NCBI GenBank assembly: GCA_017403185.1
Contig: JAFQON010000004.1
Span: forward strand, 1 to 47,284
From: Clostridia bacterium
GTDB taxonomy: Bacteria; Bacillota; Clostridia; Oscillospirales; Acutalibacteraceae
Direction of reading: 5' to 3'
DNA: 47,284 nucleotides
The notes beneath the pieces were generated by a model. That model searched no databases. It was not told the DNA's origin and saw only the letters and a program-made list of their open reading frames with translations. A program made the translations under genes and the position numbers. Of the stretch, positions 30,421 to 47,060 are shown in pieces. The first letter of the stretch is position 1; every line of letters starts with the position of its first letter.

Positions 30421-30449
30421 TTGACTTGTACGGTCTGTCATTTTATAAT
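30421..30449 (+). promoter_or_regulatory. promoter of the DUF362 - radical SAM pair
   Basis: TTGACT (30421-30426), a 17-bp spacer, then TATAAT (30444-30449), about 30 bp before the ATG. Confidence 0.8.
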
Positions 30450-30483: not shown

Positions 30484-31611
30484 ATGAGTAAATGTGCGGT
30501 TTTCAGGGCAGATAAATATGATGATGAAATTCTTTATGCGGTTGTGAAAAAGCATTTTGAAGCTCACGGCATCGCAGAGGATTTATCATCGGCTTCGAAT
30601 GTGCTCATAAAGCCAAATCTTGTTGCGGATAAAGAGGCTGCGTTTTCGGTCACAACAAATCCACGGTTTGTTTATGCCGTCATAAGATGCCTCAAGGATT
30701 TCGGGGTTGAAAAAATAACCGTTGCAGATTGCCCCGGCGGCTCACTGCTCCTTTTTTCTCAGATGACCGATGTCTACAGGCGCACGGGCTACAGCTTTCT
30801 CGGCGAATATGCCGCTCTCAACACTGATTTTGACAGCAGTGATGTTTTCGGTCAGGCTGATTTTGCAAACGGAAAGTTTAATATAATAAATGCAGTTGCC
30901 CATGCGGATTATATTATAAATGTTGCTAAGCTCAAAACGCACAATCTTACCGGCATAACAGCGGGAGTAAAAAATCTTTTCGGCTGTATTCCGGGGATGC
31001 AGAAGCCTGCGTTTCATGCAAAGTATCCGTCAAAAACGGATTTTTCAAATATGCTTGTTGAGCTTGCCGCAACGGTGAAACCCGATTTCACGCTCGTTGA
31101 TGCAGTTGATATAATGGAGGGCAACGGTCCCACAAACGGCAAAAAGCGGCATCTCGGCGTTACTTTTTCGTCAAGGGATGTTTTTACTCTTGACAAATTC
31201 ATTGCGGAAATCCTTGATATCCCGCCCGAAAAGGTCAGCACGCTTTCAGCGGCAGAAAAAAAGGGCTTTATCGGCACTGCCGAGGGTGTGGGGGATACCG
31301 ATTTCACGCCGCAGACCCCGATTCTGCTGCCTGATTCGGTCAGAGCCGAAACCGCAGGCGGAAAAATCGGTGCAAAGATAAACACCCTTTTCACCAAGCT
31401 GAATGATGCGCTTTTTATGAGCTGCCCTCAGATGAATGAAAAATGCGTGCTTTGCAAAAAATGCGTTGCAACCTGCCCTGCGGGTGCGCTTTCGCTGCAA
31501 GGTAAAAAAATAATTCTGAATAAGAATAAATGTATAGGCTGCCTGTGCTGCGATGAGGTCTGCACAAATGCGGCTGTCGATATAAAAAGAAGAATAAAGA
31601 GAAAAAGATAA
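30484..31611 (+). CDS. DUF362 domain protein with C-terminal 2[4Fe-4S] ferredoxin domain
   Basis: 375 residues. DUF362 features are NVLIKPNLVAD (about 40-50), TVADCPGG, INVAKLKTHNLTGITAGVKNLFGCIPG (about 142-170) and VDAVDIMEGNGPTNGK. The last ~55 residues carry two ferredoxin motifs, CVLCKKCVATCP and CIGCLCCDEVC. The function of the family is unknown; a redox or sulfur/metal role is often proposed. It is 16 bp before a radical SAM gene and could supply electrons to it. No signal peptide was seen. Confidence 0.9.
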   Translation: MSKCAVFRADKYDDEILYAVVKKHFEAHGIAEDLSSASNVLIKPNLVADKEAAFSVTTNPRFVYAVIRCLKDFGVEKITVADCPGGSLLLFSQMTDVYRRTGYSFLGEYAALNTDFDSSDVFGQADFANGKFNIINAVAHADYIINVAKLKTHNLTGITAGVKNLFGCIPGMQKPAFHAKYPSKTDFSNMLVELAATVKPDFTLVDAVDIMEGNGPTNGKKRHLGVTFSSRDVFTLDKFIAEILDIPPEKVSTLSAAEKKGFIGTAEGVGDTDFTPQTPILLPDSVRAETAGGKIGAKINTLFTKLNDALFMSCPQMNEKCVLCKKCVATCPAGALSLQGKKIILNKNKCIGCLCCDEVCTNAAVDIKRRIKRKR

Positions 31612-31627
31612 AAAGAGAGAGGAAAAA

Positions 31628-33115
31628 ATGAAAATACTGTTTGTGCAGCCTTCGGCGGATTTTTTTATCAGGGGCACCACATACCCGGTTTGCAGGAGCA
31701 TAATGACAACCGCAACATACATGAAATCCGTCGGTCACGAGGTTATGGTGTTTGACCGTTGCATAGATTTCAGAAAAAAAGAAAAGGTTTTTGATGAATT
31801 CATGCCGCAGCTGGTTATGGTCTATGTCACGCCTGCGGTGTCGATAAAAGACTCAATTGAAATATCAGCCTTTGCAAAAGACAGAGGATGCTTCACGGTC
31901 TGGGGCGAAATTATAGCTGCATCGCTTGCAGAGGAGGCGGTTGAAAGAGGCTGCACCGATTTTGTCATCAACGGTGAAACCGAGCGCAAGCTGCAGCTGC
32001 TTGTTGAAGAGCTCACGGGCAGCAGCCGTTTTGAAAATGTGCCCGGGCTTACCTATCTGAAAAACGGCAGGGCTGTTTCAAACGCCAATGAAAACTGCTC
32101 GGACCTTTCAACCTTGCCCGGCATCGACTGGGAGCTGATTGATGTTGAAAAGTGCTTCAGAAAATTCCCTTTCTGCAAAAAAATGCTTTATCTGTATACA
32201 TCAAGAGGCTGCCCTTATAAATGCACATACTGCTATAACACAACTTTCTATAATTCCGAGCACAGAAAAAGACCGCTTCATTTTGTGCTTGAAGAAATAA
32301 AACATCTTGAAAAAAAGCACGGGCTTGACGGTGCGAATTTTTCGGACGAGCTTCTTTTGCTCAGCGACGATGAAATCAAAGAAATTGCAGAATTCAGAAA
32401 AACCAACGGCTTGAAATTTCTCTGGGGCGGCGAAACAAGAGCGGATATATATAAAAACCCCGAAACGCTTGCCAAAATGTATGATGCAGGCTGCCGATGG
32501 CTTCTGCTCGGGCTTGAAACGGGCAGCAAAAAAACGCAGGAGCTTATCAACAAGCCCCTTGACTTTGCTGCTGTGAGGGAATTTGTTGATAACTGCACAA
32601 AGGCGGGCATTGCAACCTTCGGCTCATTCATTATAGGCTTGCCCGATGAAACCGAGGAGCAAATCAAAGAAACGGTGCAATATGCGCAAAGCCTTGATCT
32701 TGATGCGTTTTTGTTCAGCTATTATAACGCCATCCCCAAAACACCGCTTTGCAATATGCTTGTTGAATCGGGGAGGACAGACACCTCAAAACTGCTTGAT
32801 AAATCCACTCTCGCCGGTCAGCTTCAGAATTTGACAAAGAATTATTCGCAGATACCCGATAAAGACCTGCGTGTTATCAAAAGTTGGTTTGACTGGCTCA
32901 CCTTCACAAGGAAGAAAAAACAGGCAGCCGAGAAAAATGCGTTTATGAAAAAAGCACTCGATACCCTGAAGCATTTTTCACAGGGTAACATAAAGCGTTC
33001 GGCAGAAAATCTTATGAGCTCGGCGAAAACCTTTGTGACGGTTGTGTTTTATGCACACTGTTTTCCGTCTGTCAAAAAGAAATACGGGTTAAAAAACATC
33101 AATAAAAGGCACTGA
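31628..33115 (+). CDS. radical SAM protein with B12-binding-type N-terminal domain
   Basis: 495 residues. The N-terminal ~135 residues have the Rossmann fold of B12-binding-type radical SAM enzymes (ILFVQPSADF ... VPGLTYLKNGRAV), but I do not see the DxHxxG cobalamin motif. The radical SAM cluster is C195-PYK-C199-TY-C202 (SRGCPYKCTYC), followed by LLGLETGSKKTQELINK and GSFIIGLPDETEEQIKETV. It shares this layout with BchE-like enzymes and methyltransferases. The C-terminal ~80 residues are helical and basic. AGAGAGG precedes the ATG. It is cotranscribed with the DUF362 gene. The reaction is unknown. Confidence 0.9.
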   Translation: MKILFVQPSADFFIRGTTYPVCRSIMTTATYMKSVGHEVMVFDRCIDFRKKEKVFDEFMPQLVMVYVTPAVSIKDSIEISAFAKDRGCFTVWGEIIAASLAEEAVERGCTDFVINGETERKLQLLVEELTGSSRFENVPGLTYLKNGRAVSNANENCSDLSTLPGIDWELIDVEKCFRKFPFCKKMLYLYTSRGCPYKCTYCYNTTFYNSEHRKRPLHFVLEEIKHLEKKHGLDGANFSDELLLLSDDEIKEIAEFRKTNGLKFLWGGETRADIYKNPETLAKMYDAGCRWLLLGLETGSKKTQELINKPLDFAAVREFVDNCTKAGIATFGSFIIGLPDETEEQIKETVQYAQSLDLDAFLFSYYNAIPKTPLCNMLVESGRTDTSKLLDKSTLAGQLQNLTKNYSQIPDKDLRVIKSWFDWLTFTRKKKQAAEKNAFMKKALDTLKHFSQGNIKRSAENLMSSAKTFVTVVFYAHCFPSVKKKYGLKNINKRH

Positions 33116-33150
33116 TCTACAAATATATTGAATATTTTTTAAAAAATTGC

Positions 33151-33179
33151 TTGCTTTTTTTGCGGTTTACGGCGATAAT
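33151..33179 (+). promoter_or_regulatory. candidate promoter of the PAP2 gene
   Basis: TTGCTT (33151-33156), a 17-bp spacer, then GATAAT (33174-33179), about 35 bp before the ATG. Confidence 0.5.
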
Positions 33180-33212
33180 ATAAAATAACATATTTCAAGA
33201 AAGGAAGTTTTT

Positions 33213-33935
33213 ATGGAATCCATACTTAATTTTGACCTTGCGATTTTTGAATTCTTTGAAGAATTTATCAGAATGGATTGGCTCAATCCCATCATGAAGG
33301 TCATCACAACCCTCGGCGATGACGGCATTTTCTTCATCATTCTCGGCGTTATCATGCTGTTTTTCAAGAAAACAAGAAAAGCAGGCCTTGTCTGCCTCGG
33401 CTCGCTTCTTGTTATGACTCTTCTCAACAATGAGCTCATCAAGCCCATTATGGAGAGACCCCGCCCCTATAACCTCACCATTCTCCCCGAAGCCGCCAAG
33501 AAGGCTTTTGACGAGTACGGCAGAGAATATGACTGGATAGGCTTCTTCGGCAAGATTGACTGGAGCAACTACAGCCCCGAATTTGCCGAGAGATGGAATG
33601 CAGGCTATGTATGGCCCGATATCGTTGAATATATGAGCTCCAAGTCGCTCTCATTCCCCTCGGGTCACACCTCATCGGCATTCACCTTTGCAATGGCAAT
33701 CACAATGGTGCTCAAAAAGAAAGGCGTTGCAATCCCTGCATTCATATTCGCATTCCTTATGGGTGTTTCAAGAATCTATGTCGGCGTGCATTACCCCACG
33801 GATGTTATCGTAGGCGCTGTTGTGGGTATTCTTTACGCTCTCATCGGCTACTTCATCTTTGCAAAGCTTTATGACTTTGTATGGCCCAAAATCGAAAAGG
33901 CAATCGCAGACAAAAAGGCAAAGAAAGCTGCATAA
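33213..33935 (+). CDS. PAP2-family membrane phosphatase
   Basis: 240 residues with about six membrane helices. All three PAP2 motifs are intact: K77-x6-R84-P85, PSGH at 149-152, and S186-R187 ... H193 ... D197. Such enzymes dephosphorylate lipid substrates, such as undecaprenyl diphosphate or phosphatidic acid, with the active site facing outward. It has its own promoter and terminator and lies between two radical SAM units, so a role on their lipid product is possible but not shown. AAAGGAAG precedes the ATG. Confidence 0.93.
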   Translation: MESILNFDLAIFEFFEEFIRMDWLNPIMKVITTLGDDGIFFIILGVIMLFFKKTRKAGLVCLGSLLVMTLLNNELIKPIMERPRPYNLTILPEAAKKAFDEYGREYDWIGFFGKIDWSNYSPEFAERWNAGYVWPDIVEYMSSKSLSFPSGHTSSAFTFAMAITMVLKKKGVAIPAFIFAFLMGVSRIYVGVHYPTDVIVGAVVGILYALIGYFIFAKLYDFVWPKIEKAIADKKAKKAA

Positions 33936-33946
33936 AAACAAAACAA

Positions 33947-33982
33947 ACAGCTGAAAGTTCAACGGACTTTCGGCTGTTTTTG
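33947..33982 (+). terminator. terminator of the PAP2 gene
   Basis: ACAGCTGAAAGT (33947-33958) pairs with ACTTTCGGCTGT (33966-33977) with one G-U pair, followed by a T-run. Confidence 0.85.
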
Positions 33983-33994
33983 TCAATAAAATAC

Positions 33995-34030
33995 ACCTTT
34001 ATTGACATTTGATATTATTAGTATTATAAT
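33995..34030 (+). promoter_or_regulatory. promoter of the radical SAM A operon, with shared -35 element
   Basis: A consensus promoter: TTGACA (34002-34007), a 17-bp spacer, then TATAAT (34025-34030). The 16-bp ACCTTTATTGACATTT at 33995-34010 is identical to the minus-strand sequence over the -35 box of the radical SAM D gene (42559-42544). Confidence 0.85.
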
Positions 34031-34082
34031 AATATGGGGTATGATGCGGTAACCCTGATTTTTATGAAAGGCTCGTGATTGT

Positions 34083-36014
34083 TTGAAAAAGAAATTATAT
34101 TTCTTTCAGGTGAATTATCCTTACGGCAAGTCGGCTCATCTGCCCTACACTGCAGGTCAGCTTGCGGCTTATGCTTTTGCCGATAAGGATGTTGCCGATA
34201 ATTACAGCCTTGAAAATATATTCTTTCTCAGAGAGCCCGTTGACAGCGTGCTTGAAAAAATCGAAGCACCCTTTATTGCTGCCTTTTCCACCTATATCTG
34301 GAACTGCAACTACAACAAAGAGGTTGCAAGAAGAATAAAAGAAAAATACCCCGAGTGCATTATCGTTTTCGGCGGTCATCATGTTGCCCCCGGCGGCGGT
34401 ATGCTTGAGGAATGCCCTTATATAGACTATCTGCTCCACGGCGAGGGGGAGGTAATATTCTGCAGGCTCATGCGTGCGGCAATCGGTCTTGATAAAGCGG
34501 AGGAAATCCCCGGCATTTCAATGAGAACGGCAGGCGGAATTCTCTCAAATCCCGAGATGATTTCGGGCGAATGCGATTATCCGTCGCCCTACCTTAACGG
34601 ATATTTTGATAAAATAATTGCCGAAAACCCCGATATCGAGTTCATGTCAATAATTGAAACCTCAAGGGGCTGCCCCAACTCCTGTGCATACTGCGACTGG
34701 AGCAACATGAAATCCAAAATCCGCAAATTCCCCATTGAACGAATTTACGGCGAGATTGAGTGGATGAGCAAAAACAAAATCCACGGTCTGGGCGGTGCGG
34801 ATTCAAACTTCGGAATGTTCAGGCGTGACGAAGAAATCGTTGACAAAATCGTTGAAGCTAAGCAGAAAACGGGCTATCCCGTGTTTTTTCAGACATCGTA
34901 TGCAAAAAACAGCAGCAAAACCGTGTTTGATATGAGCCTGAAGCTTGAAAAAAGCAGAATGAACAAGGGTGTTACCCTCTCGTTTCAGTCCATGAGCCGT
35001 GAAGCTCTTAAGAATATCGGCAGAGAAAACATAAGCGTTGAATACTATTCGGAGCTTATGAATCTTTACAATAATGCAGGCGTTGCAACCTACACGGAGC
35101 TTATTCTCGGCCTGCCGGGCGAAACCTATGACAGCCTTGTTGACGGCATAGACAAGCTTCTCAGCCTCGGTCAGCACAACTCAATATATATTCATAACTG
35201 TGAGCATCTTCCGTGTTCGATTATGGCGCAGAAGGATTATGTTGAAAAATACAAAATAAAAACCTCACGCACCCCGCTCAATCAGCCTCACAGAGAGCCT
35301 GACGACGGCGACGATATTGCCGAGTTTTCAAGCATCGTGACCTCAACCTGCTCGATGACCCCTGCAGACTGGAAGAGAATGAACCTCTTTTCATATATGA
35401 TTCAGTGCTGCCACCACATGGGAATTCTGCAGTTTTTTGCACTTTATCTTTATAACGAGGGTTTGTGCTCCTATAAGGAATTCTATTCCTCGGCGCTTGA
35501 GCATTTCCTTTCGCAGCCCGATACCGTTGCGGGCGGGATTTTCAAAAAAATCAGCGGTTATCTTGACGAAGTGCTGGCAGAAAAAGGCACTCTGAGCTGC
35601 TGCGACGAAAGATTCGGCAGAGTGCAGTGGACCTTTGAGGAATTCGCCTTCCTCGGCATGGCTTACGAAGCCGAAAAATTCTATGATGAAACAAAGGGCT
35701 TTCTATCCCGCTTCGGGATTGAAGAAAAGGTTTTCAACAGCCTTTTTGAATTTCAGAAGAACATGATAAAGCAGCCCTTTGATAATGAAAAAAGCTTTGA
35801 TATTTCTTATGATTTTCTTGCATATTTCCGTGAAATTCTTGACGGCGGCAAGCCTGAGCTTATGCAGGGCGAAAACACCGTGACCGTTAATGCAAAGCCT
35901 TTTGATTCATGGGCGGAATTTGCAAGGGTCGTTGCCTGGTACGGCAGAAAAGACGGCAACGCCACATATATAAAACAATCTCAATCGGAACGGAGAAGCA
36001 TTTGTGATGAATAA
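34083..36014 (+). CDS. radical SAM protein A (B12-binding-type N-terminal domain)
   Basis: 643 residues starting at TTG. The N-terminal domain (about 1-140) has the B12-type fold with YIWNCNY (about 71-77) and IIVFGGHHVAPGG. The radical SAM cluster is C197-PNS-C201-AY-C204, followed by Asp-Trp (CDW). Downstream are GGADSNFGMF, VTLSFQSMSRE and YTELILGLPGETYDS (about 338-352). A C-terminal ~250-residue helical domain (ending FARVVAWYGRKDG) is shared with proteins B and D. It overlaps B by about 10 bp. Function unknown; likely anaerobic C-C, C-H or methyl chemistry. Confidence 0.9.
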   Translation: MKKKLYFFQVNYPYGKSAHLPYTAGQLAAYAFADKDVADNYSLENIFFLREPVDSVLEKIEAPFIAAFSTYIWNCNYNKEVARRIKEKYPECIIVFGGHHVAPGGGMLEECPYIDYLLHGEGEVIFCRLMRAAIGLDKAEEIPGISMRTAGGILSNPEMISGECDYPSPYLNGYFDKIIAENPDIEFMSIIETSRGCPNSCAYCDWSNMKSKIRKFPIERIYGEIEWMSKNKIHGLGGADSNFGMFRRDEEIVDKIVEAKQKTGYPVFFQTSYAKNSSKTVFDMSLKLEKSRMNKGVTLSFQSMSREALKNIGRENISVEYYSELMNLYNNAGVATYTELILGLPGETYDSLVDGIDKLLSLGQHNSIYIHNCEHLPCSIMAQKDYVEKYKIKTSRTPLNQPHREPDDGDDIAEFSSIVTSTCSMTPADWKRMNLFSYMIQCCHHMGILQFFALYLYNEGLCSYKEFYSSALEHFLSQPDTVAGGIFKKISGYLDEVLAEKGTLSCCDERFGRVQWTFEEFAFLGMAYEAEKFYDETKGFLSRFGIEEKVFNSLFEFQKNMIKQPFDNEKSFDISYDFLAYFREILDGGKPELMQGENTVTVNAKPFDSWAEFARVVAWYGRKDGNATYIKQSQSERRSICDE

Positions 36015-37932
36015 AAAGAAAGTATACTTCGTGCAGGTCAATGTAACCTACAGCGACTGCTTTTCATATTTCCCCTATGCGTCGGGCTGCATTGCCGCCT
36101 ATGCGTGGAGGGAGAAGGAAATCAGCGAGAATTATGAGCTTGCCGATATCTTCTGCATCAGGCACAAAACACATGAGGTGCTCGAAAAAATCGAAAATCC
36201 CGCCGTTGTGGGCTTCTCCTGCTATATCTGGAATATGGAGTATAACCTGCAGCTTGCTCAGATGGTTAAGGAGAAATATCCCGATTGCGTTATCGTTTTC
36301 GGTGGTCACAATGTGCCCGATGATACAAGCCTGCTTGAAAAGCACCCCTTCATTGATGTGCTTATGCACGCAGAAGGGGAGGAGCCCTTCACAATGCTGC
36401 TCAAGGCTCTCAATAACGGCTCGGACTTCAAGGCAATCCCCGATATTTCCTTCAGAGATAACGGCGGTTATGTTATGACCGAAAAAAAGAAGGTTTATGA
36501 TATCTCGGATTATCCGTCACCCTATACCGAGGGCTTCTTTGACAAGCTTTTTGAGGATTTCCCGAATGTCACCTTCCACGCAACGCTTGAAACCAACCGA
36601 GGCTGCCCCTACGGCTGCGCATTCTGCGACTGGTGCTTCACAAAGAAAATCCGCCTTTTCCCCATGGAGAGGGTCAAGGGCGATATAGATTGGATATCCG
36701 CCCATAAAATCTCGTATTGCTACTGTGCCGATGCAAACTTCGGCATTGATGAGCGTGATATCGAAATTGCCAACTATATTCTTGCCAAGAAAAATGAAAA
36801 CGGATATCCGCAGGTGTTCAAGCCCTGCTATGCCAAAAACAGCGACGATACCGTTTTTGAAATCGGCAAGATTCTCAATCACAGCGGCATCGATAAGGGT
36901 GTAACCCTCGCTTATCAGTCGCTTGACGAAAAAACGCTTGAGAATATCGGGCGCAAAAACCTTACTCTCGAGCATTATTCAAATCTCACCGCAAAGTATG
37001 CGGAGGAAAAAATCCCCACCTACACCGAGCTTATCCTCGGTATGCCGGGCGAAACCTACGAGAGCTTCTGCAACGGTCTTTGCCGCCTGCTTGAAAACGG
37101 TCAGCACAACTCAATGACTGTTTACACCTGCCAGGTTTACTGCAACGCACCCATTGCAAGCAAGGAATATAAGGAAAAATACGGCATCCGCTGCGAAAGG
37201 CAGCCGCTTCACGGAATTCACTACACCGCTGATTTCAACGGCGTGCAGGAATACTACGATATCATTGTTGAAACCAAGGATATGAGCAAGGAGATGTGGG
37301 TGAAGGCGAATATGTTTTCCGTCTGCCTGCAGAGCTTCCATCACCTCGGTCTGCTTCGCTGCTTTGCGATTTATGCCCGCCACGAGCTCGGCATAAGCTA
37401 TTATGATTTCTATAACAGGCTTCTTGACTATATTTTCAGCGATTCTTCGAAATACATTTATGCTCTTTTTGAGGAAATTCGCCAAAAAACAGCCAACACC
37501 GCCACCTCGGACTGGTGCTATCAGAAGGATATTTTCAGCAAAATCGGCTGGTATTTCGAAGAAGGAATCTTCCTTGATTTGCACTATAACCGTGACAAAT
37601 TCTGGCCCGAGATTGAGCCCTTCATCTCTTCACTCGGAATTGACGGCGATGTTTACAAAGAGTTGCTTAAATATCAGCAGGGCATTCTGAGATTGCCGAA
37701 TACGGAAACGGTAACGGTCGATTCGGGCTATGATTTCTACACTTATTTTGAAAATATTTACGATGACCGTTATGCTCCGCTTGAGAAAAAGCATACCCGC
37801 CTTGACATCACTCTCGAAAAGCAGATTGATAACTGGTCGGATTATGCGATTGAAATAATATGGTACGGCAAGCGCAAGAGCGCAACCCTCTGCACCAACC
37901 ACAGAGAAACCGTAGAGGTTAAGTATTTATAG
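36004..37932 (+). CDS. radical SAM protein B, paralog of A
   Basis: 642 residues. It aligns with A along the whole length: VYFVQVN, YIWNMEYN, VIVFGGHNVPDD, then C201-PYG-C205-AF-C208 with Asp-Trp, GVTLAYQSLDEKTLENIGRKN, and YTELILGMPGETYES. The C-terminal domain has CLQSFHHLGLLRCFAIYARHELGISYYDFY. GTG at 36004 or ATG at 36007 may be the start; both overlap the stop of A. Two paralogs in one operon suggest they act on related steps or form a pair. Confidence 0.9.
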   Translation: MMNKKKVYFVQVNVTYSDCFSYFPYASGCIAAYAWREKEISENYELADIFCIRHKTHEVLEKIENPAVVGFSCYIWNMEYNLQLAQMVKEKYPDCVIVFGGHNVPDDTSLLEKHPFIDVLMHAEGEEPFTMLLKALNNGSDFKAIPDISFRDNGGYVMTEKKKVYDISDYPSPYTEGFFDKLFEDFPNVTFHATLETNRGCPYGCAFCDWCFTKKIRLFPMERVKGDIDWISAHKISYCYCADANFGIDERDIEIANYILAKKNENGYPQVFKPCYAKNSDDTVFEIGKILNHSGIDKGVTLAYQSLDEKTLENIGRKNLTLEHYSNLTAKYAEEKIPTYTELILGMPGETYESFCNGLCRLLENGQHNSMTVYTCQVYCNAPIASKEYKEKYGIRCERQPLHGIHYTADFNGVQEYYDIIVETKDMSKEMWVKANMFSVCLQSFHHLGLLRCFAIYARHELGISYYDFYNRLLDYIFSDSSKYIYALFEEIRQKTANTATSDWCYQKDIFSKIGWYFEEGIFLDLHYNRDKFWPEIEPFISSLGIDGDVYKELLKYQQGILRLPNTETVTVDSGYDFYTYFENIYDDRYAPLEKKHTRLDITLEKQIDNWSDYAIEIIWYGKRKSATLCTNHRETVEVKYL

Positions 37933-37948
37933 GAAAGCGTGTTTTTAT

Positions 37949-38692
37949 TTGTCAGTTTTTTCAGGTGTTACAATAATGACGGGTGCCGTTTCGGAAACGG
38001 AAACTCTGCGTCAGACGATAAATACCGTGCTCGAGGTCTGTGACCACAGGGATATAACGGAGATACTCATTACCTACCCCGACAGGGCAACACCCGAATG
38101 CCTTGAGGTTGTGAATGAGCTTGCAGGCATAGAATGCGATGTGCCGATAAGAGCATTTGAGCAAAAGCATCCGTTTATCGCTTTTGTGATAGACCTTATC
38201 GAAGCGGCTGAAGGCTCACACTGCATACTTGTGCCCTCGGATATGGCGCTCGATTTGAGTATGCTGCCGCAGATGATAGAGGGCGCAAAAAAAGAGCCGG
38301 ACACAATATTTTCCGCCTCCCGCTGGCTCAAGGGCTGCGAATTCTATGATTACGGGCAGGTTAAAAAGCTGATAAATTTCTTTGCCCAAAAGTTCCTTGC
38401 GGTGCTTTATATGCGCAATCTTACCGATTTCACAAATCCCGTTCAGATTGCACCGTCAGAGCTTTACAAAGCAATCAATTTTGAAGAAACGGGCTTCCCC
38501 GTTTTTGCCGAAATGATATTAAAGCCCATAAGGCTCGGCTATAAATTCAAGGAGCTGCCCACAAACTGTTATTCAAGAACAGAGGGCAAATCCAGCAATT
38601 CGTGGAGGCAGATTTTATCTTATCTGCGAGTTGTTTTACATATCAGGTTCATGCCTGAAAAGGATATTCTTTTGGAGGAATTCAGAAAATGA
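37949..38692 (+). CDS. GT2-like glycosyltransferase
   Basis: 247 residues starting at TTG, with AGGAAAGC upstream. It has the compact GT-A fold of family 2: SGVTIMTGAVSETETLRQTINTV, then VPSDMALD where the D-x-x-x-D takes the place of the metal motif, and FSASRWLKGC near residue 125. The last recalls dolichol- or polyprenyl-phosphate-type transferases. No membrane helix was seen. It sits between radical SAM B and radical SAM C, with which it overlaps by 4 bp (ATGA), so it probably glycosylates the same product or its carrier. Confidence 0.75.
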   Translation: MSVFSGVTIMTGAVSETETLRQTINTVLEVCDHRDITEILITYPDRATPECLEVVNELAGIECDVPIRAFEQKHPFIAFVIDLIEAAEGSHCILVPSDMALDLSMLPQMIEGAKKEPDTIFSASRWLKGCEFYDYGQVKKLINFFAQKFLAVLYMRNLTDFTNPVQIAPSELYKAINFEETGFPVFAEMILKPIRLGYKFKELPTNCYSRTEGKSSNSWRQILSYLRVVLHIRFMPEKDILLEEFRK

Positions 38693-40521
38693 AAACTCTT
38701 TTTGTTCTGCCGCCGCAGTGGTATCCCATGAGTCCGTATCTCTCGGCAGCGCAGCTTGTCGGTCAGTTTAAAAAGAACGGGCTGAGTGCCGCCGCAAGGG
38801 ATCTCAATGTTGAGTTTTTCAACGATATGCTCAAAAAAGACAGAGTGCTTGATGCCGCTGAAAAGGCGAAGGCTTTTTGTGATGAATTTGCCCTTGAAAT
38901 TGAGAAAGAGGGCTACCGTGAGGAGAACTTTGAGCAGTATTCTCCCATGATAAAAACAAAGCTTATGCGCTACAGGGCGTGCACGGAGTTTTTTGAGGGC
39001 GATATTGATGCCTGCGATGTTGCCGAAAGGGTTGAGGATGCCGTTGCGGCGCTTAAAACCCGTGAGCGTTTCTATGACCCCGAGCAGCTTTTTGAGGCAA
39101 AGGATACGGTGATTGATGCCCTCAGCATAGTTTCTCTGCCGTTTCAGCCGAGCAAAATAATGCTTGACAACTTCATCGCAAACCCCGTTTATTCCTATGA
39201 TTATGAGGATATCAAGCTTCAGTGCAACGATGCAAGCCTCAATATGTTTGTTGATTATTTTGACAAAAAAATCAAGGCAGAGGATTTTGAGGGCTACGGC
39301 ATGATAGGTGTAAGCATCTGCGATTTAAGCCAGATTATCCCCGGTCTAACCCTTGCAAAATATCTTAAAGAAAGAACAAACGCCCACATCACTCTGGGCG
39401 GCAACTATATTTATAAAATCAGAGAGTCGCTTAAAACCATGCCCGAATTCTTTGATATCTTCTGCGATTCCGTGCAGGTTGGCGACGGCGAAATTGCCGC
39501 AGTAAGGCTTGCAAAGGCGGTTATGGGCGAAATCCCCATGAACGAAGCATATTCGCTTATTTATAAGAACGGTGACGGCGAAATAACAGTGACCGAAACG
39601 GCTCCCTTGCTTGATATGGATGCGCTTGCACCGCCCTGCTTTGACGGCTACGATTTCAGCCAATATCTCTCTGCCGATATCGTTTTGCCCGTTCAGCTTT
39701 CAAAAAGCTGCTATTGGGCAAAATGCACCTTCTGTGATTTCTATACGGGTCAGCAGTGCTTTGACATCAAGAGCGTTAAGCATGCCGTTGACGAGGTTGA
39801 AAGCCTTGTCAATCAATACGGCTTTCATCATTTTATATTTGTTGATGAGGCTGTGCCGCCCAAATATTACAACGAGCTTGCGCTTGAAATTATTCGCAGA
39901 GGAATTAAAATCAACTTCTACTCATTCGTTCGCCTTGAAAAGACCTTCACAAAAGAGATTCTGCAGAATCTCTATAATGCAGGTGCCCGCTCATTCATAT
40001 GGGGCTATGAGGCGGAGAGTGAGAGAATAATGAAAATTCTCAACAAGGGCATTGACTGCTCACAACGCAAAAGAATTCTTGAGGATGCAAAATCGGTCGG
40101 CCTTTTCAATCACTGCACTTTCCTTCTCGGCTATCCGAGCGAAACACCCGAGGAAACCGAAGCAACAAAGAACACAATCCGCAACCGTGCGCTTGTCAAT
40201 TGCTGCACACCCTCAAATTTCGCATTGAAGAAAAACGCAATTATGATTAAGGAAACCGAGGATGCAGGCATAAAGAATGTTACCGATAACGGCGATTTCC
40301 ACATTTCATGCAATTATGTTATAAACGGCAACTCCACAAAGAATATCAAGAAGGACAGAATGGAATTTCAGCATAATTTCCTTAAGGATAATGCCCGAAG
40401 CCTATGGTCGCTCAGCTTTGCGGATACCGACCATATTCTGCTTTACCTCTCAAAATACGGAGCAGACTGGGTTCGTGATTATAAGCTGAAATATAAGAAA
40501 CACAATTTCACAGGCACATAA
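38689..40521 (+). CDS. radical SAM protein C, B12-binding-type, divergent from A/B/D
   Basis: 610 residues. The first ~190 residues are a helical region not seen in A, B or D. A Rossmann-like domain follows (GVSICDLSQIIPGLTLAKYLKE, ITLGGNYIYKI, VQVGDGEIAAVRLAKAV). The radical SAM cluster is C341-YWA-C345... with Cys at 341, 345 and 348 (CYWAKCTFC). SFVRLEKTFTKEILQNLYNAGARSFIWGYEAESER and FLLGYPSETPEETEATK come after. It is the last gene of the A-B-GT2-C operon. Substrate unknown. Confidence 0.88.
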   Translation: MKTLFVLPPQWYPMSPYLSAAQLVGQFKKNGLSAAARDLNVEFFNDMLKKDRVLDAAEKAKAFCDEFALEIEKEGYREENFEQYSPMIKTKLMRYRACTEFFEGDIDACDVAERVEDAVAALKTRERFYDPEQLFEAKDTVIDALSIVSLPFQPSKIMLDNFIANPVYSYDYEDIKLQCNDASLNMFVDYFDKKIKAEDFEGYGMIGVSICDLSQIIPGLTLAKYLKERTNAHITLGGNYIYKIRESLKTMPEFFDIFCDSVQVGDGEIAAVRLAKAVMGEIPMNEAYSLIYKNGDGEITVTETAPLLDMDALAPPCFDGYDFSQYLSADIVLPVQLSKSCYWAKCTFCDFYTGQQCFDIKSVKHAVDEVESLVNQYGFHHFIFVDEAVPPKYYNELALEIIRRGIKINFYSFVRLEKTFTKEILQNLYNAGARSFIWGYEAESERIMKILNKGIDCSQRKRILEDAKSVGLFNHCTFLLGYPSETPEETEATKNTIRNRALVNCCTPSNFALKKNAIMIKETEDAGIKNVTDNGDFHISCNYVINGNSTKNIKKDRMEFQHNFLKDNARSLWSLSFADTDHILLYLSKYGADWVRDYKLKYKKHNFTGT

Positions 40522-40528
40522 AATAAGA

Positions 40529-40555
40529 AGCACCGAGAAAAACTCGGTGCTTTAT
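40529..40555. terminator. bidirectional terminator
   Basis: AGCACCGAG (40529-40537) pairs with CTCGGTGCT (40543-40551), followed by TTATTT. It separates convergent radical SAM C and D. Confidence 0.85.
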
Positions 40556-42478
40556 TTATATATTATCTACCTTTACATCCGCTTTATAGGATTTGCTGCC
40601 CATTTTGCCGTACCACACAACCTGCTTGCCGAAATCATCCCAATTATAAACGGGGTTGGTGTCGGTAAACACTGTTCTGAAGCTGCCGACTTCAAGCGGA
40701 GCATATTTGTTGACATAGATTCGTCTGAAATAATTGTAAAAATCGTAGTCAGTGTCGCATTCGCTCTTTTCTTCGCAGGGCTTTCTGATAATCGCTTTCT
40801 GATAAGCAACAAGCTGTGAGAGCAGCTTTTCGTCTTTGATTATTCCTTTGAGATATGGCATAAGCTCGGCATAGAAGCGGTCAATATCCGCACTTGCATG
40901 AAGGAACATGAATTCATAATGGTCCCACACAAGGTTGCCTGCAAAATCCGCAACAAATTTGGGTGTTATTCCCTTTGCGAGCCCCACAAAGGAGTCCTTG
41001 ACCTCGTTGTAGAAATTTGCGATAAACGGCACATCATTGCCCTCAATGTAATCCATAAGCCCCTCGTAAAAGCTTCTGTAGCTTACTCCGAGCTCATAGT
41101 GCGCATAGATTGCAAGGCATCTGAGCAGACCGCAGGCGTGCATGGACTGCGTGAAGCCTGCAAAAAGACCGCATCGCTGCCATTTATCGCAGGGCAAGGT
41201 GTTGGTTTCGGTGATAATATTGATTTTTTCGGGGATGTAATACGCATCGGCGGCGCAGTGGAAGCGCACGATTTCAGCCCTTGATGTCCTGATGCCGTGC
41301 TTTTCCATATACTCCTTGTTGCCGAGCTGTGAATTGGGCAGCACAATGCAGTGGTAAACTTCAAAAATAAAGTGCTGACCTATCTCAAACAGCTTGCAGA
41401 TACCGTCAAGGAAGCTGTCATAGGTTTCGCCGGGCAATCCGAGAATAAGCTCGGAATACACCTGCAGCTTCTCCTCATGATAAAGGCTGAAATTATCCCT
41501 GAATTTATCGAGCGACATATTTTTTCTGCCGATGTTTTCAAGCACAACGGGGTTTAAGCTCTGCAGGGAAATTGTTGCGCCCTCACGGTCAACACCCTTG
41601 CGGTTGAAGCGGCGCACAATCTCACGCACACGCTCCGTGTTGCCCTTTGAGTAGTTTATTCTTACCCTTTCGGGATAGCCGTATTTTTCTTTTGCGGCAA
41701 CAAGCGCATCGGCAATTATCAAATCGTTTTTGCCTATGCCGAAGTTTGCATCTGCGCCCCACACAAAGCCGATTTTGTTTTTGCCTATCCACTCAATCTC
41801 GGCAAGCACCTTTTCAAGCGGAAAATATCTTGTTTTCTCTTTAAGCGGCCCCCAGTCACAGTATGCACAGGAGTTGGGGCAGCCGCGGCTTGTTTCAAGA
41901 ATGGTGTTGAATTCATAATCAGGGTGCTTTTGCGAAAGGTTATCAAACCAGCCGTCAAGGTAGGGAGAAGCGTAATCAACGCCGCAGAAGGCTTCTTTTT
42001 CCGTCACAACGCAGCCGTTTTCACTGCGGTATGCAATGTTTGTGAGCTGCGTCACCGTGCCGTCATTCAAAGCATTGAGCAGCCTCGCAAAGGTGACCTC
42101 GCCCTCACCGAAGCAGAGGTAATCCACCTGAGGATTTTCTTCAAGAAACGAAGCATCGGGCGGAATGTTGTGACCGCCGAAAACCGTTACGCAATCAGGG
42201 AATTTTCTCTTTATTGCGGCGGCAAGTGCAAGGTGATACTCGGTGTTCCACACATAGTTTGAAAAGCCCGCAACGGCAGGCTCGTCCATCTCCTCAACAA
42301 CGGCGTCAATTTCTTGGCGGATAAAGATAAAATCCTTGAATTCATAAGCCGATTTAACATCTTCATCCTTGAAAGCGTTTGCGATAATGACGCCTGCCGT
42401 GTAAGGCAGATATACTATTTTGGAATTTTTGCCCGAGGATACATCCACCTGAACAAAATAAACATTCTTTTTCTGCAA
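40556..42478 (-). CDS. radical SAM protein D, third paralog of A and B
   Basis: 640 residues starting at TTG, with AGGTTGTGA upstream. Shared hallmarks are NVYFVQVDVSSG, NYVWNTEYHLALA, VTVFGGHNIPPDA, then C200-PNS-C204-AY-C207 with Asp-Trp, FVWGADANFGIGKND, ISLQSLNPVVLENIGRKNMS and YSELILGLPGETYDS. The C-terminal domain has MHACGLLRCLAIYAHYELGVSYRSFYEG, matching B closely. It is convergent with the A-B-GT2-C operon, and its promoter shares a 16-bp motif with it. Confidence 0.9.
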   Translation of the reverse strand: MQKKNVYFVQVDVSSGKNSKIVYLPYTAGVIIANAFKDEDVKSAYEFKDFIFIRQEIDAVVEEMDEPAVAGFSNYVWNTEYHLALAAAIKRKFPDCVTVFGGHNIPPDASFLEENPQVDYLCFGEGEVTFARLLNALNDGTVTQLTNIAYRSENGCVVTEKEAFCGVDYASPYLDGWFDNLSQKHPDYEFNTILETSRGCPNSCAYCDWGPLKEKTRYFPLEKVLAEIEWIGKNKIGFVWGADANFGIGKNDLIIADALVAAKEKYGYPERVRINYSKGNTERVREIVRRFNRKGVDREGATISLQSLNPVVLENIGRKNMSLDKFRDNFSLYHEEKLQVYSELILGLPGETYDSFLDGICKLFEIGQHFIFEVYHCIVLPNSQLGNKEYMEKHGIRTSRAEIVRFHCAADAYYIPEKINIITETNTLPCDKWQRCGLFAGFTQSMHACGLLRCLAIYAHYELGVSYRSFYEGLMDYIEGNDVPFIANFYNEVKDSFVGLAKGITPKFVADFAGNLVWDHYEFMFLHASADIDRFYAELMPYLKGIIKDEKLLSQLVAYQKAIIRKPCEEKSECDTDYDFYNYFRRIYVNKYAPLEVGSFRTVFTDTNPVYNWDDFGKQVVWYGKMGSKSYKADVKVDNI

Positions 42479-42523: not shown

Positions 42524-42559
42524 ATTATAATATCGTTAATGGTAAATGTCAATAAAGGT
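42524..42559 (-). promoter_or_regulatory. promoter of radical SAM D, with shared -35 element
   Basis: On the minus strand TTGACA (42552-42547), a 17-bp spacer, then TATAAT (42529-42524). The sequence ACCTTTATTGACATTT (42559-42544) is identical to that at 33995-34010. Confidence 0.85.
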
Positions 42560-45073: not shown

Positions 45074-46981
45074 TTATGTTTCAGCGTTAAAGAAAGTGTA
45101 AACCTTTTCAAGGAAGGCATAGAGTTTGAGCATATAGGGGTTGAGCGCATCCCAGTACGGCTCATCAAAAAGCACGGACCACTTGAAGGGCTCTCTTATC
45201 AGGTGAAGAATATCGCACTCTGAAAAATAGCGGTTGTCGCCCTCGCCGACACGGATTACTCCGAAAGCCTTGAGGTCGTTATAAAGGTCGTCCTGTGCCT
45301 TCATCCACAGATACGGGAACTGCAGGCGTGAAAATTCAGCCTTGGCGTTGGCACATTTCCAGTATCTCCAGGAGAGTCTTGACTGCAAAATGTTTCTGAA
45401 TTGCTGTGAAGTGGTTGCCTTATTCATTGCCGCCTGCCACAACTCGTCGCAATGCGCTATGTCAGCGTTTGTCATACCGTAGAGTGTTTTCTTTGCTTCC
45501 TGGTAAATGGTAAGGTGCTTTCTGTCTGTTACGGCGTGGGCCGTTATAATTTCAATAAACTCCTTGATGTATCCCCAACCGGGACCGTAAACGGCAGCAA
45601 GATAGCCGTCAAACTCCGTTTCAAGGTCGATGTACGGGTTCTGCATCAGTTTCTGGAGCAGATATGTACGAAGGTCACCGAATTCGCCGTCGCACTCGCT
45701 GATATAGTAATTACCCTCTTCGTAAACACCCTTGACATTATTCTCGTAGAATATCTGTACATTACGCTGAAGCACATTGAAATTCGGAAAAATACATATT
45801 GTTTCACGGTAGTTGTTTACATAGTCCCAGATATAAATTCTGTTGCAGATTTTGCCCCATGCCTCAAGGTCTGCCATAAATGCGGCGTTTTCATTGCACT
45901 TTTCATCGTCCATCGTGTGACCGAAGCAGCACTCGATTGAGCAAAGGCGGACTATGACATTATCACGGGGCACAACCTTTGTCGGTGGCTTGCGGGTGTA
46001 CTGGTAGGCAAAGGTGTCAATGGCAATGTTCGTGTAGCCGGCGTCCTCAACAGCCTTGGCAACAGCGTTTACGAAGGTAATCATAGTTCCCGATTGTGAA
46101 CCGTTTTCTCTGTCGAGAGCCTTACAGCTTTTGCACTCACAGTAATCCTGATTGTCGTGCTGCGTGAGCGAAAGAATCTGCACGCTTGCACTCGGGTCGT
46201 GGTTTGCCTTAATTGCGGCAAGAGCCTCGGCAGTTACTATTTCAAGCGTCTTGGGGTTGGTCAGGCAAAGCTGATTGGGTGTACGCTTGCCATTGTGAAG
46301 AGCAAAATACTCGGGGTTGGTTTCAAAGTAATCGGCCGATTTACAAAACTGTGTTGTAAGCGTATGGGCAAAGGAGCCGATATAGCCTACACCGCCGCCC
46401 TGTTCGGGGCTGAGTGCACAGTATACCAAACCGTTGTGACCGTTTGCAACGGAAAACTCGGGGTCACGGGAGCTGTTTGTATCAGTCTGCGTATATTCAA
46501 AGAACGGTTCATAGCTGTCATCAATATCCGTTGGCAGAACAAGCTGTGCATTTGAGGGTACAGAAACCGTATCGTATCTGTACCAACGACAGCCGCAGTA
46601 TTTTTCAAGGAAACCGTATACGCCATAAATAGTACCGCGTGTGCCTGCACCGCAAATGTACACGGTATCGCCCTCGGATTTAATGATATAACCGCCGTTG
46701 TCGTAAGAACTCAGGTCAAACTGCTTTCTTGCAGTTTCGCCGACAACAATTTCCGCTCCGTCTTTGGCAGTTGAATCGGTTGCAACCGTATATTCGCTGC
46801 CCGTTACCCGACCAAGGTAGTAGGCCAACTTTTCAGCAGCATAGCGATCTGTCTGCGAAGCGTTTGCGCCGACAACAATTGTTGCGTTCTTCACAAAAAA
46901 GCCCTCCTCATGTGCGGCGGAAACAAATGCAAAGCCGCAGCAAATACTGATACAAAGAATAAGCGAAATGAGTTTTTTCAT
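45074..46981 (-). CDS. secreted DUF4838 domain protein (glycosidase-like)
   Basis: 635 residues. The signal peptide (about 1-22, MKKLISLILCISICCGFAFVSA) indicates export. An N-terminal domain (about 25-140) resembles the accessory domain of GH67/GH20 enzymes (IVVGANASQTDRYAAEKLAYYLGRVTGSEY, GGYIIKSEGDTVYICGAGTRGTIYGVYGFLEKYCGCRWY). The DUF4838 domain follows, with LSLTQHDNQDYCECKSCKALDRENGSQS (paired Cys) and RIYIWDYVNN. DUF4838 proteins are barrel-like and often occur near polysaccharide genes; activity is not established. ATG at 46981 has AGAGAGG upstream. The gene is flanked by 17-bp direct repeats. Confidence 0.88.
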   Translation of the reverse strand: MKKLISLILCISICCGFAFVSAAHEEGFFVKNATIVVGANASQTDRYAAEKLAYYLGRVTGSEYTVATDSTAKDGAEIVVGETARKQFDLSSYDNGGYIIKSEGDTVYICGAGTRGTIYGVYGFLEKYCGCRWYRYDTVSVPSNAQLVLPTDIDDSYEPFFEYTQTDTNSSRDPEFSVANGHNGLVYCALSPEQGGGVGYIGSFAHTLTTQFCKSADYFETNPEYFALHNGKRTPNQLCLTNPKTLEIVTAEALAAIKANHDPSASVQILSLTQHDNQDYCECKSCKALDRENGSQSGTMITFVNAVAKAVEDAGYTNIAIDTFAYQYTRKPPTKVVPRDNVIVRLCSIECCFGHTMDDEKCNENAAFMADLEAWGKICNRIYIWDYVNNYRETICIFPNFNVLQRNVQIFYENNVKGVYEEGNYYISECDGEFGDLRTYLLQKLMQNPYIDLETEFDGYLAAVYGPGWGYIKEFIEIITAHAVTDRKHLTIYQEAKKTLYGMTNADIAHCDELWQAAMNKATTSQQFRNILQSRLSWRYWKCANAKAEFSRLQFPYLWMKAQDDLYNDLKAFGVIRVGEGDNRYFSECDILHLIREPFKWSVLFDEPYWDALNPYMLKLYAFLEKVYTFFNAET

Positions 46982-47015
46982 AAACAGAACCTCTCTTATC
47001 TGTAATGTTAATTCT

Positions 47016-47043
47016 ATTATACAATAAGAAAAGTTGCTGTCAA
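47016..47043 (-). promoter_or_regulatory. promoter of the DUF4838 gene
   Basis: On the minus strand TTGACA (47043-47038), a 16-bp spacer, then TATAAT (47021-47016). A GTTAAT...ATTAAC palindrome (47054-47074) lies just upstream and overlaps copy 2 of the 17-bp repeat; it could be an operator. Confidence 0.75.
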
Positions 47044-47060
47044 CTAACAAAAATGTTAAT

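Follow-up and report, generated by a model that had tools for sequence, protein, structure and literature searches.

What does a dense group of radical S-adenosylmethionine (SAM) genes, standing with a glycosyltransferase gene, do in an uncultured gut-type lineage of Clostridia? The question is raised by contig JAFQON010000004.1 (C6) of Clostridia bacterium assembly GCA_017403185.1, analysed here over its 47,284 nucleotides (the window). The genome (2.40 Mb in 50 contigs, 80% complete) has 30 matches to the radical SAM family PF04055, giving an expectation of 0.14 within positions 31628-42478; five are found in these 10.9 kb (rS0, rSA, rSB, rSC and rSD; Table 1), with a Poisson probability of five or more of 3e-7 for a single window and about 8e-5 genome-wide. 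A reading of the sequence alone (the sequence-only reading) had listed these genes with a glycosyltransferase (GT2), a DUF362 ferredoxin and a PAP2 phosphatase, and had proposed that they form one pathway for the synthesis or modification of a lipid-linked glycan, an unusual lipid or a small molecule. All eight island genes that it named are present, and the density of radical SAM genes is far above chance. The 12 kb is not a single pathway: a two-gene DUF362-rS0 module is separate, and the rest is a recurrent system. On balance we favour the view that the core rSA, rSB, GT2 and rSC, with rSD, is the form taken here by a modular system that makes C-methylated sugars for a surface or exported glycan linked to polyprenyl phosphate. 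The view is based on homology, kept catalytic residues, linkage found in both directions, recurrent sugar and GT-C genes, and predicted folds.

TokK-type cobalamin radical SAM methylases are known from antibiotic pathways. Full-length homology to TokK (about 560 residues, with E values between 3e-87 and 4e-102) is found in rSA (phmmer E 1.3e-92, residues 3-583), rSB (E 3.9e-102, residues 5-567; E 2e-52 to CysS) and rSD. Among 168 full paralogues the cysteine triad CX3CX2C is present in all 168, the equivalent of Trp76 in 166 and that of Trp215 in 167, and rSA, rSB and rSD have all three features. Of the two tryptophans, one faces the cobalamin and the other bridges SAM and cobalamin (PMC12846815, PMC9692996). 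It is thus very probable, judged from sequence, that the three proteins carry out TokK-type chemistry. They alone among the five radical SAM proteins match the Pfam B12-binding domain; rSC has no such match and adopts a cobalamin radical SAM fold by structure prediction. The description of all five as B12-type is corrected accordingly; rS0 has only a sub-cut-off likeness to HpnJ/BchE. In total the genome carries five TokK-type genes, three on C6 and one each on C18 and C26.

The GT2 profile matches the Pyrococcus dolichol-phosphate mannose synthase (DPMS) with E 2.5e-17 and ArnC with E 7e-10, which bears out the earlier label of a polyprenyl-phosphate-like transferase. In its DXD motif the first Asp is replaced in 23 of 24 sequences, the window's included, and kept in L011; the second is present in all 24. 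On this homology, GT2 likely loads a sugar on polyprenyl phosphate. Four other PF00535 genes occur in the genome, one on C47, two on C38 and one on C10.

Recurrence of the core was examined from both ends. A scan with rSB, using one genome per GTDB species, returned 73 loci, of which 53 (L008-L060) contain relatives at 35-81% identity; all of these come from uncultured Clostridia/Bacillota or from assembled metagenomes, and for many the source is the gut of goat, sheep, cattle, buffalo, deer or yak. By profile, GT2 is present in 44 of the 53 and rSC in 24. The reverse search, with the GT2 profile only, matched 2 genomes in a sample of 394 from the order (our genome and one of the same family) and 41 of 398 genomes of the family, ours included, spread over 17 of 135 genera. 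The 60 matches besides the window's fall in 58 stretches (L115-L172), some on contigs also in the first set, and GT2 was recovered by gene calling in 53 of them. A TokK-type gene is found in 54 of the 58 and none in 4, and a TokK-type or rSC gene lies on the same strand within 400 nt of a GT2 in 39. When the test was confined to the 42 GT2 loci in groups without a first-set locus at 85% methylase identity, a TokK-type gene was still present in 38.

Counted over 112 loci (the 53, the 58 and the window), runs of at least four TokK/rSC genes occur in 41 and runs of six in three. The order of methylase clades varies between loci, as in T5-T3-T2-C-T4-GT-C, T0-T1-C-GT-C, T3-T0-T1-GT, T7-T6-T9-T10 and T2-GT only; relatives of T8, the clade of rSD, are found at L008, L009, L011 and L012. 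A class-wide search found TokK-type genes in at least 2 of 341 genomes, a lower bound because three candidates were scored per genome and our genome's own copies on C18 and C26 were missed. Among plasmids, 17 records have TokK-type matches, all under 60% identity. L184 (on the contig of L057) comes from genome G1069, which is placed in a different family of the class; its array, which includes FKP and GT-C-type genes, lies between two small genes with alike starts, as if inserted. A CrtI-like oxidoreductase paired with an FNR/2Fe-2S reductase lies inside the arrays at L010, L017, L033, L039 and L043, and a distant pair of this type is found in our genome (L083:11633-14347), where another radical SAM gene lies at a distance of about 2 kb.

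What the arrays act on is suggested by their neighbours. Nucleotide-sugar genes (nearest to GDP-heptose enzymes or to FKP fucose enzymes), a GT-C-fold protein (F2) or both occur at 29 of the 53 and 25 of the 58 loci, against none of 20 control loci; counted separately, sugar genes occur at 23/53 and 16/58 and the GT-C protein at 16/53 and 18/58, each with 0/20 in controls. The GT-C profile was built from a 16-row alignment, and a version with three extra proteins gave identical counts. Among the folds listed as similar to the predicted structure of F2, the top 39 entries are all GT-C enzymes or complexes containing one; as a candidate for the catalytic Asp of the first outer loop, a Y-D-x-G motif is seen in several members only. 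The heptose-type genes score 135.8 bits (cut-off 600) for HddA, 175.8 (300) for HddC, 144.1 (149.6) for GmhB and 152 (209.45) for GmhA, so that these names denote the nearest named families only.

At L008, L009, L019 and L043 heptose-type genes, T5, T3, T2, rSC', T4, GT2 and rSC form one co-directional run, except that L019 lacks a called cupin gene and L043 contains a CrtI/FNR insertion and has its last gene cut off. Our genome carries this run in two pieces. The window corresponds to the second half (rSA 76%, rSB 81% and rSC 80% identical to L019; GT2 72% to L043) and contig C26 to the first, with a dehydrogenase (86%), an HddA-like gene (81%), an HddC-GmhB-like gene (75%) and T5 (88%) matched to L019, a cupin (80% to L043), then an epimerase and F2, the sole F2 homologue found in the genome. 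The genome's best GmhA match, on C36, reaches 93.8 bits against the cut-off of 209.45; it shares its locus with a ROK-kinase-like gene and was not counted.

The methylase clades were then compared with the sugar genes over 78 groups at 85% identity, 68 of which could be given a clade by best match at 45% identity or more; the clade sets were picked after inspection of the first 53 loci, and the grouping removes shared ancestry only roughly. Clade T5 is present in 6 of 8 groups with Hdd genes and 9 of 60 others (p 0.001), clades T6/7/9/10 in 4 of 5 FKP groups and 4 of 63 others (p 4e-4), and no group has both modules. In the held-out groups the Hdd-T5 association recurs (5/7 versus 4/24, p 0.012); the single held-out FKP group is negative, too few for the FKP-clade association. 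That the methylase clade tracks the sugar module favours methylation of a sugar over that of a common lipid. We consider it probable, by a modest margin, that the methylated part is a sugar, and somewhat short of an even chance that it is specifically a heptose.

Viral sequences provide independent, weaker support for a sugar context. A pattern search of IMG/VR derived from the TokK-type alignment matched at least 600 stretches, at least 570 of which encode a TokK-type relative at E 1e-3 or better. The best 80 of these (L185-L264, 32-41% identity) were examined: all match the TokK-type profile, genes of the NAD epimerase/dehydratase type occur in 34, DegT-like genes in 23 and one or the other in 39, and in 23 two full-length TokK-like genes lie side by side. 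Phage genomes hold such sugar genes for other reasons also. Many TokK-like genes among the same best 80 adjoin a gene judged by eye to be a phage portal gene; INPHARED phages gave 2 weak TokK-type matches.

In the mechanism we propose, a sugar phosphate would be converted to a nucleotide sugar, in our genome probably by the HddA- and HddC-GmhB-like products of C26, and GT2, as its family suggests, would transfer the sugar to polyprenyl phosphate at the inner membrane face. The TokK-type enzymes, with SAM and cobalamin, would methylate unactivated carbons of the sugar, each paralogue probably serving its own site or round, and rSC may act on that sugar by further radical chemistry, for example to deoxygenate, rearrange or methylate it. 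After flipping, the GT-C-fold membrane protein would move the sugar to an acceptor outside. A bolder and rather doubtful extension is combinatorial C-methylation, in which strain-specific methylase sets and one polyprenyl-phosphate glycosyltransferase produce one or a few lipid-linked sugars with methyl groups on several unactivated carbons, hydrophobic surface sugars of an undescribed kind, and viral relatives would write similar ones. The earlier proposal of a lipid-linked glycan pathway is supported for rSA-rSB-GT2-rSC(-rSD), because the linkage recurs in both directions and sugar-nucleotide and GT-C genes accompany about half of the loci; its extent over the whole island is not.

Two other readings were weighed, each improbable and the second slightly less so. 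The polyprenyl carrier or another lipid could be methylated, with GT2 glycosylating the product; GT2 is the sole partner common to most arrays, and lipid-acting radical SAM enzymes such as HpnR and Tes are known, but the tracking of sugar-activation modules by methylase clade is unexpected for a common lipid substrate, and CrtI-like genes, candidates for action on isoprenoids, are present at only 6/53 and 3/58 loci. A diffusible, antibiotic-like glycoside would be in keeping with what TokK, CysS and KedN5 usually do, and the characterised relatives TokK and CysS act in natural-product pathways (PMC12846815, PMC9692996). Against this stand the polyprenyl-phosphate type of GT2, the recurrent GT-C-fold protein and the neighbouring genes: no nonribosomal peptide synthetase, polyketide synthase or carrier-protein gene was recognised by eye among 187 unlabelled same-directon genes, read as 40 clusters by their representatives' first residues and 84 singles, with a few clusters unlisted and no domain scan. 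Maturation of a ribosomally synthesized and post-translationally modified peptide (RiPP) by rSC and its partners is much less plausible still. The best NCBIfam match of rSC is rSAM_ocin_1, with 107.5 bits against a cut-off of 281.85, yet the 316 gaps between neighbouring core genes have a median of 5 bp, with 300 of them shorter than 100 bp, which leaves little room there for a precursor gene; clustering took in genes of 80 aa or more and no search aimed at precursors was made outside the gaps, so one could lie elsewhere.

We give a similarly small chance to the whole island, with DUF362, rS0 and PAP2, being one pathway in which DUF362 serves as electron donor. The genes share a strand and are closely spaced in the window, and HpnJ-like relatives of rS0 (about 26-37% identity) occur at 12/53 and 11/58 array loci, so that a looser tie of rS0 to the arrays may exist. 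DUF362, however, adjoins rS0 in 3 of the 31 genomes of the genus, ours included, and around the other two pairs (G756 and G758) no TokK-type gene is found within the 15-20 kb examined. The one-pathway reading was rejected because DUF362-rS0 travels alone. No relatives of PAP2, DUF362 or FemAB were found at the 53 loci L008-L060, the set to which this test was applied. Rare co-occurrence had been named as the finding that would count against a shared pathway: the core recurs together, and DUF362, rS0 and PAP2 are rarely found with it. The two other DUF362-rS0 pairs (L176, L177) are 60-65% identical to window positions 30484-33115, and at L019, L023 and L035 two to four HpnJ-like radical SAM genes lie in a row near TokK-type genes. 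Assignment of rS0 itself as HpnJ or BchE is rejected by scores below the cut-offs.

The island's own promoter-like and hairpin signals also separate its parts. From these the 12 kb look to be three units, DUF362-rS0(-PAP2), rSA-rSB-GT2-rSC and rSD; the signals are consensus matches, not transcripts, and the scan found 32 promoter-like sites against a shuffle mean of 24.0 (sd 4.7). The overlapping gene ends described earlier for the second unit are confirmed at rSA/rSB (11 nt) and GT2/rSC (4 nt), with 16 nt between rSB and GT2; an ATG lies one codon inside the called start of rSB. Beyond the island, positions 45074-47050 encode a 658-aa, probably secreted protein.

Table 1. Genes and putative signals of the island (window coordinates).
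Feature	Position	Strand	Basis
Promoter-like site upstream of DUF362	30421..30449		11/12 consensus matches
DUF362 + ferredoxin (4Fe-4S) protein	30484..31611	+	PF04015, 174 bits
rS0, HpnJ/BchE-like radical SAM protein	31628..33115	+	HpnJ model 141.4 bits, cut-off 577.6
PAP2 phosphatase-like membrane protein	33213..33935	+	PF01569, 91.6 bits
Hairpin 3' of PAP2			z -5.2
Promoter-like site upstream of rSA, TTGACA-17-TATAAT	34002..34030	+	12/12 consensus matches; consensus only
rSA, TokK/CysS-type cobalamin radical SAM methylase, clade T3	34083..36014	+	phmmer; Pfam radical SAM + B12-binding
rSB, TokK/CysS-type methylase, clade T2	36004..37932	+	TokK and CysS homology
GT2, polyprenyl-phosphate sugar synthase-like glycosyltransferase	37949..38692	+	Profile match + reciprocal linkage
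rSC, cobalamin radical SAM enzyme with CX4CX2C motif	38689..40521	+	Predicted fold
Two-way terminator-like hairpin between converging units	40527..40553	both	11-pair stem (6 GC) on +, 10-pair on -, T-rich tails
rSD, TokK/CysS-type methylase, clade T8	40556..42478	-	TokK E 2.8e-87
Promoter-like site upstream of rSD	42524..42552	-	12/12 consensus matches

If the favoured reading of C-methylated glycan sugars is correct, the TokK family gains a new role, its genes standing in rows next to one for a sugar-lipid glycosyltransferase in the Clostridia of the gut and having relatives in many viral contigs; branched-carbon surface sugars are predicted, many natural variants become available for the study of regioselectivity, and it becomes testable what some of the B12 radical SAM genes still unexplored in gut genomes are for. 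The parts are of known kinds, and their combination was not found described in the literature searched, which was open-licence, most subscription papers lying outside it.

Each part can be set beside its nearest known counterpart. The folds nearest to rSC are OxsB and AprD4, the latter acting, by its entry title, on the aminoglycoside paromamine; rSC differs in its CX4CX2C motif and is about 15% identical. GT2 shares with the dolichol/polyprenyl-phosphate sugar synthases DPMS and ArnC the profile match and the second DXD Asp, and differs from them in the loss of the first and in having no clear membrane segment; because the DXD is not intact we describe it as working like these enzymes, not as a member. 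F2 shares its predicted fold with the GT-C transferases that use polyprenyl-phosphate sugars as donors (ArnT, PimE, ALG3/9/12), at no more than 12% identity. Genes nearest to all four of GmhA, HddA, GmhB and HddC of the GDP-D-glycero-D-manno-heptose pathway occur at array loci, where, unlike in that pathway, they are below curated cut-offs and joined to radical SAM methylases. KedN5 (NF033712) is the best NCBIfam model for rSA, rSB and rSD, whose 227-241 bits are far under its 700-bit cut-off, and membership in that family was rejected. The closest counterparts are the iterative cobalamin radical SAM C-methylases TokK/ThnK and CysS (9n1b; TokK, 7kdx), with which the three proteins share full-length homology, the CX3CX2C triad and both tryptophans. 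Whereas those enzymes work in natural-product pathways, no carrier-protein genes were recognised by eye among the listed neighbours at the array loci, and here up to six TokK/rSC genes stand in a run with a glycosyltransferase of the polyprenyl-phosphate type.
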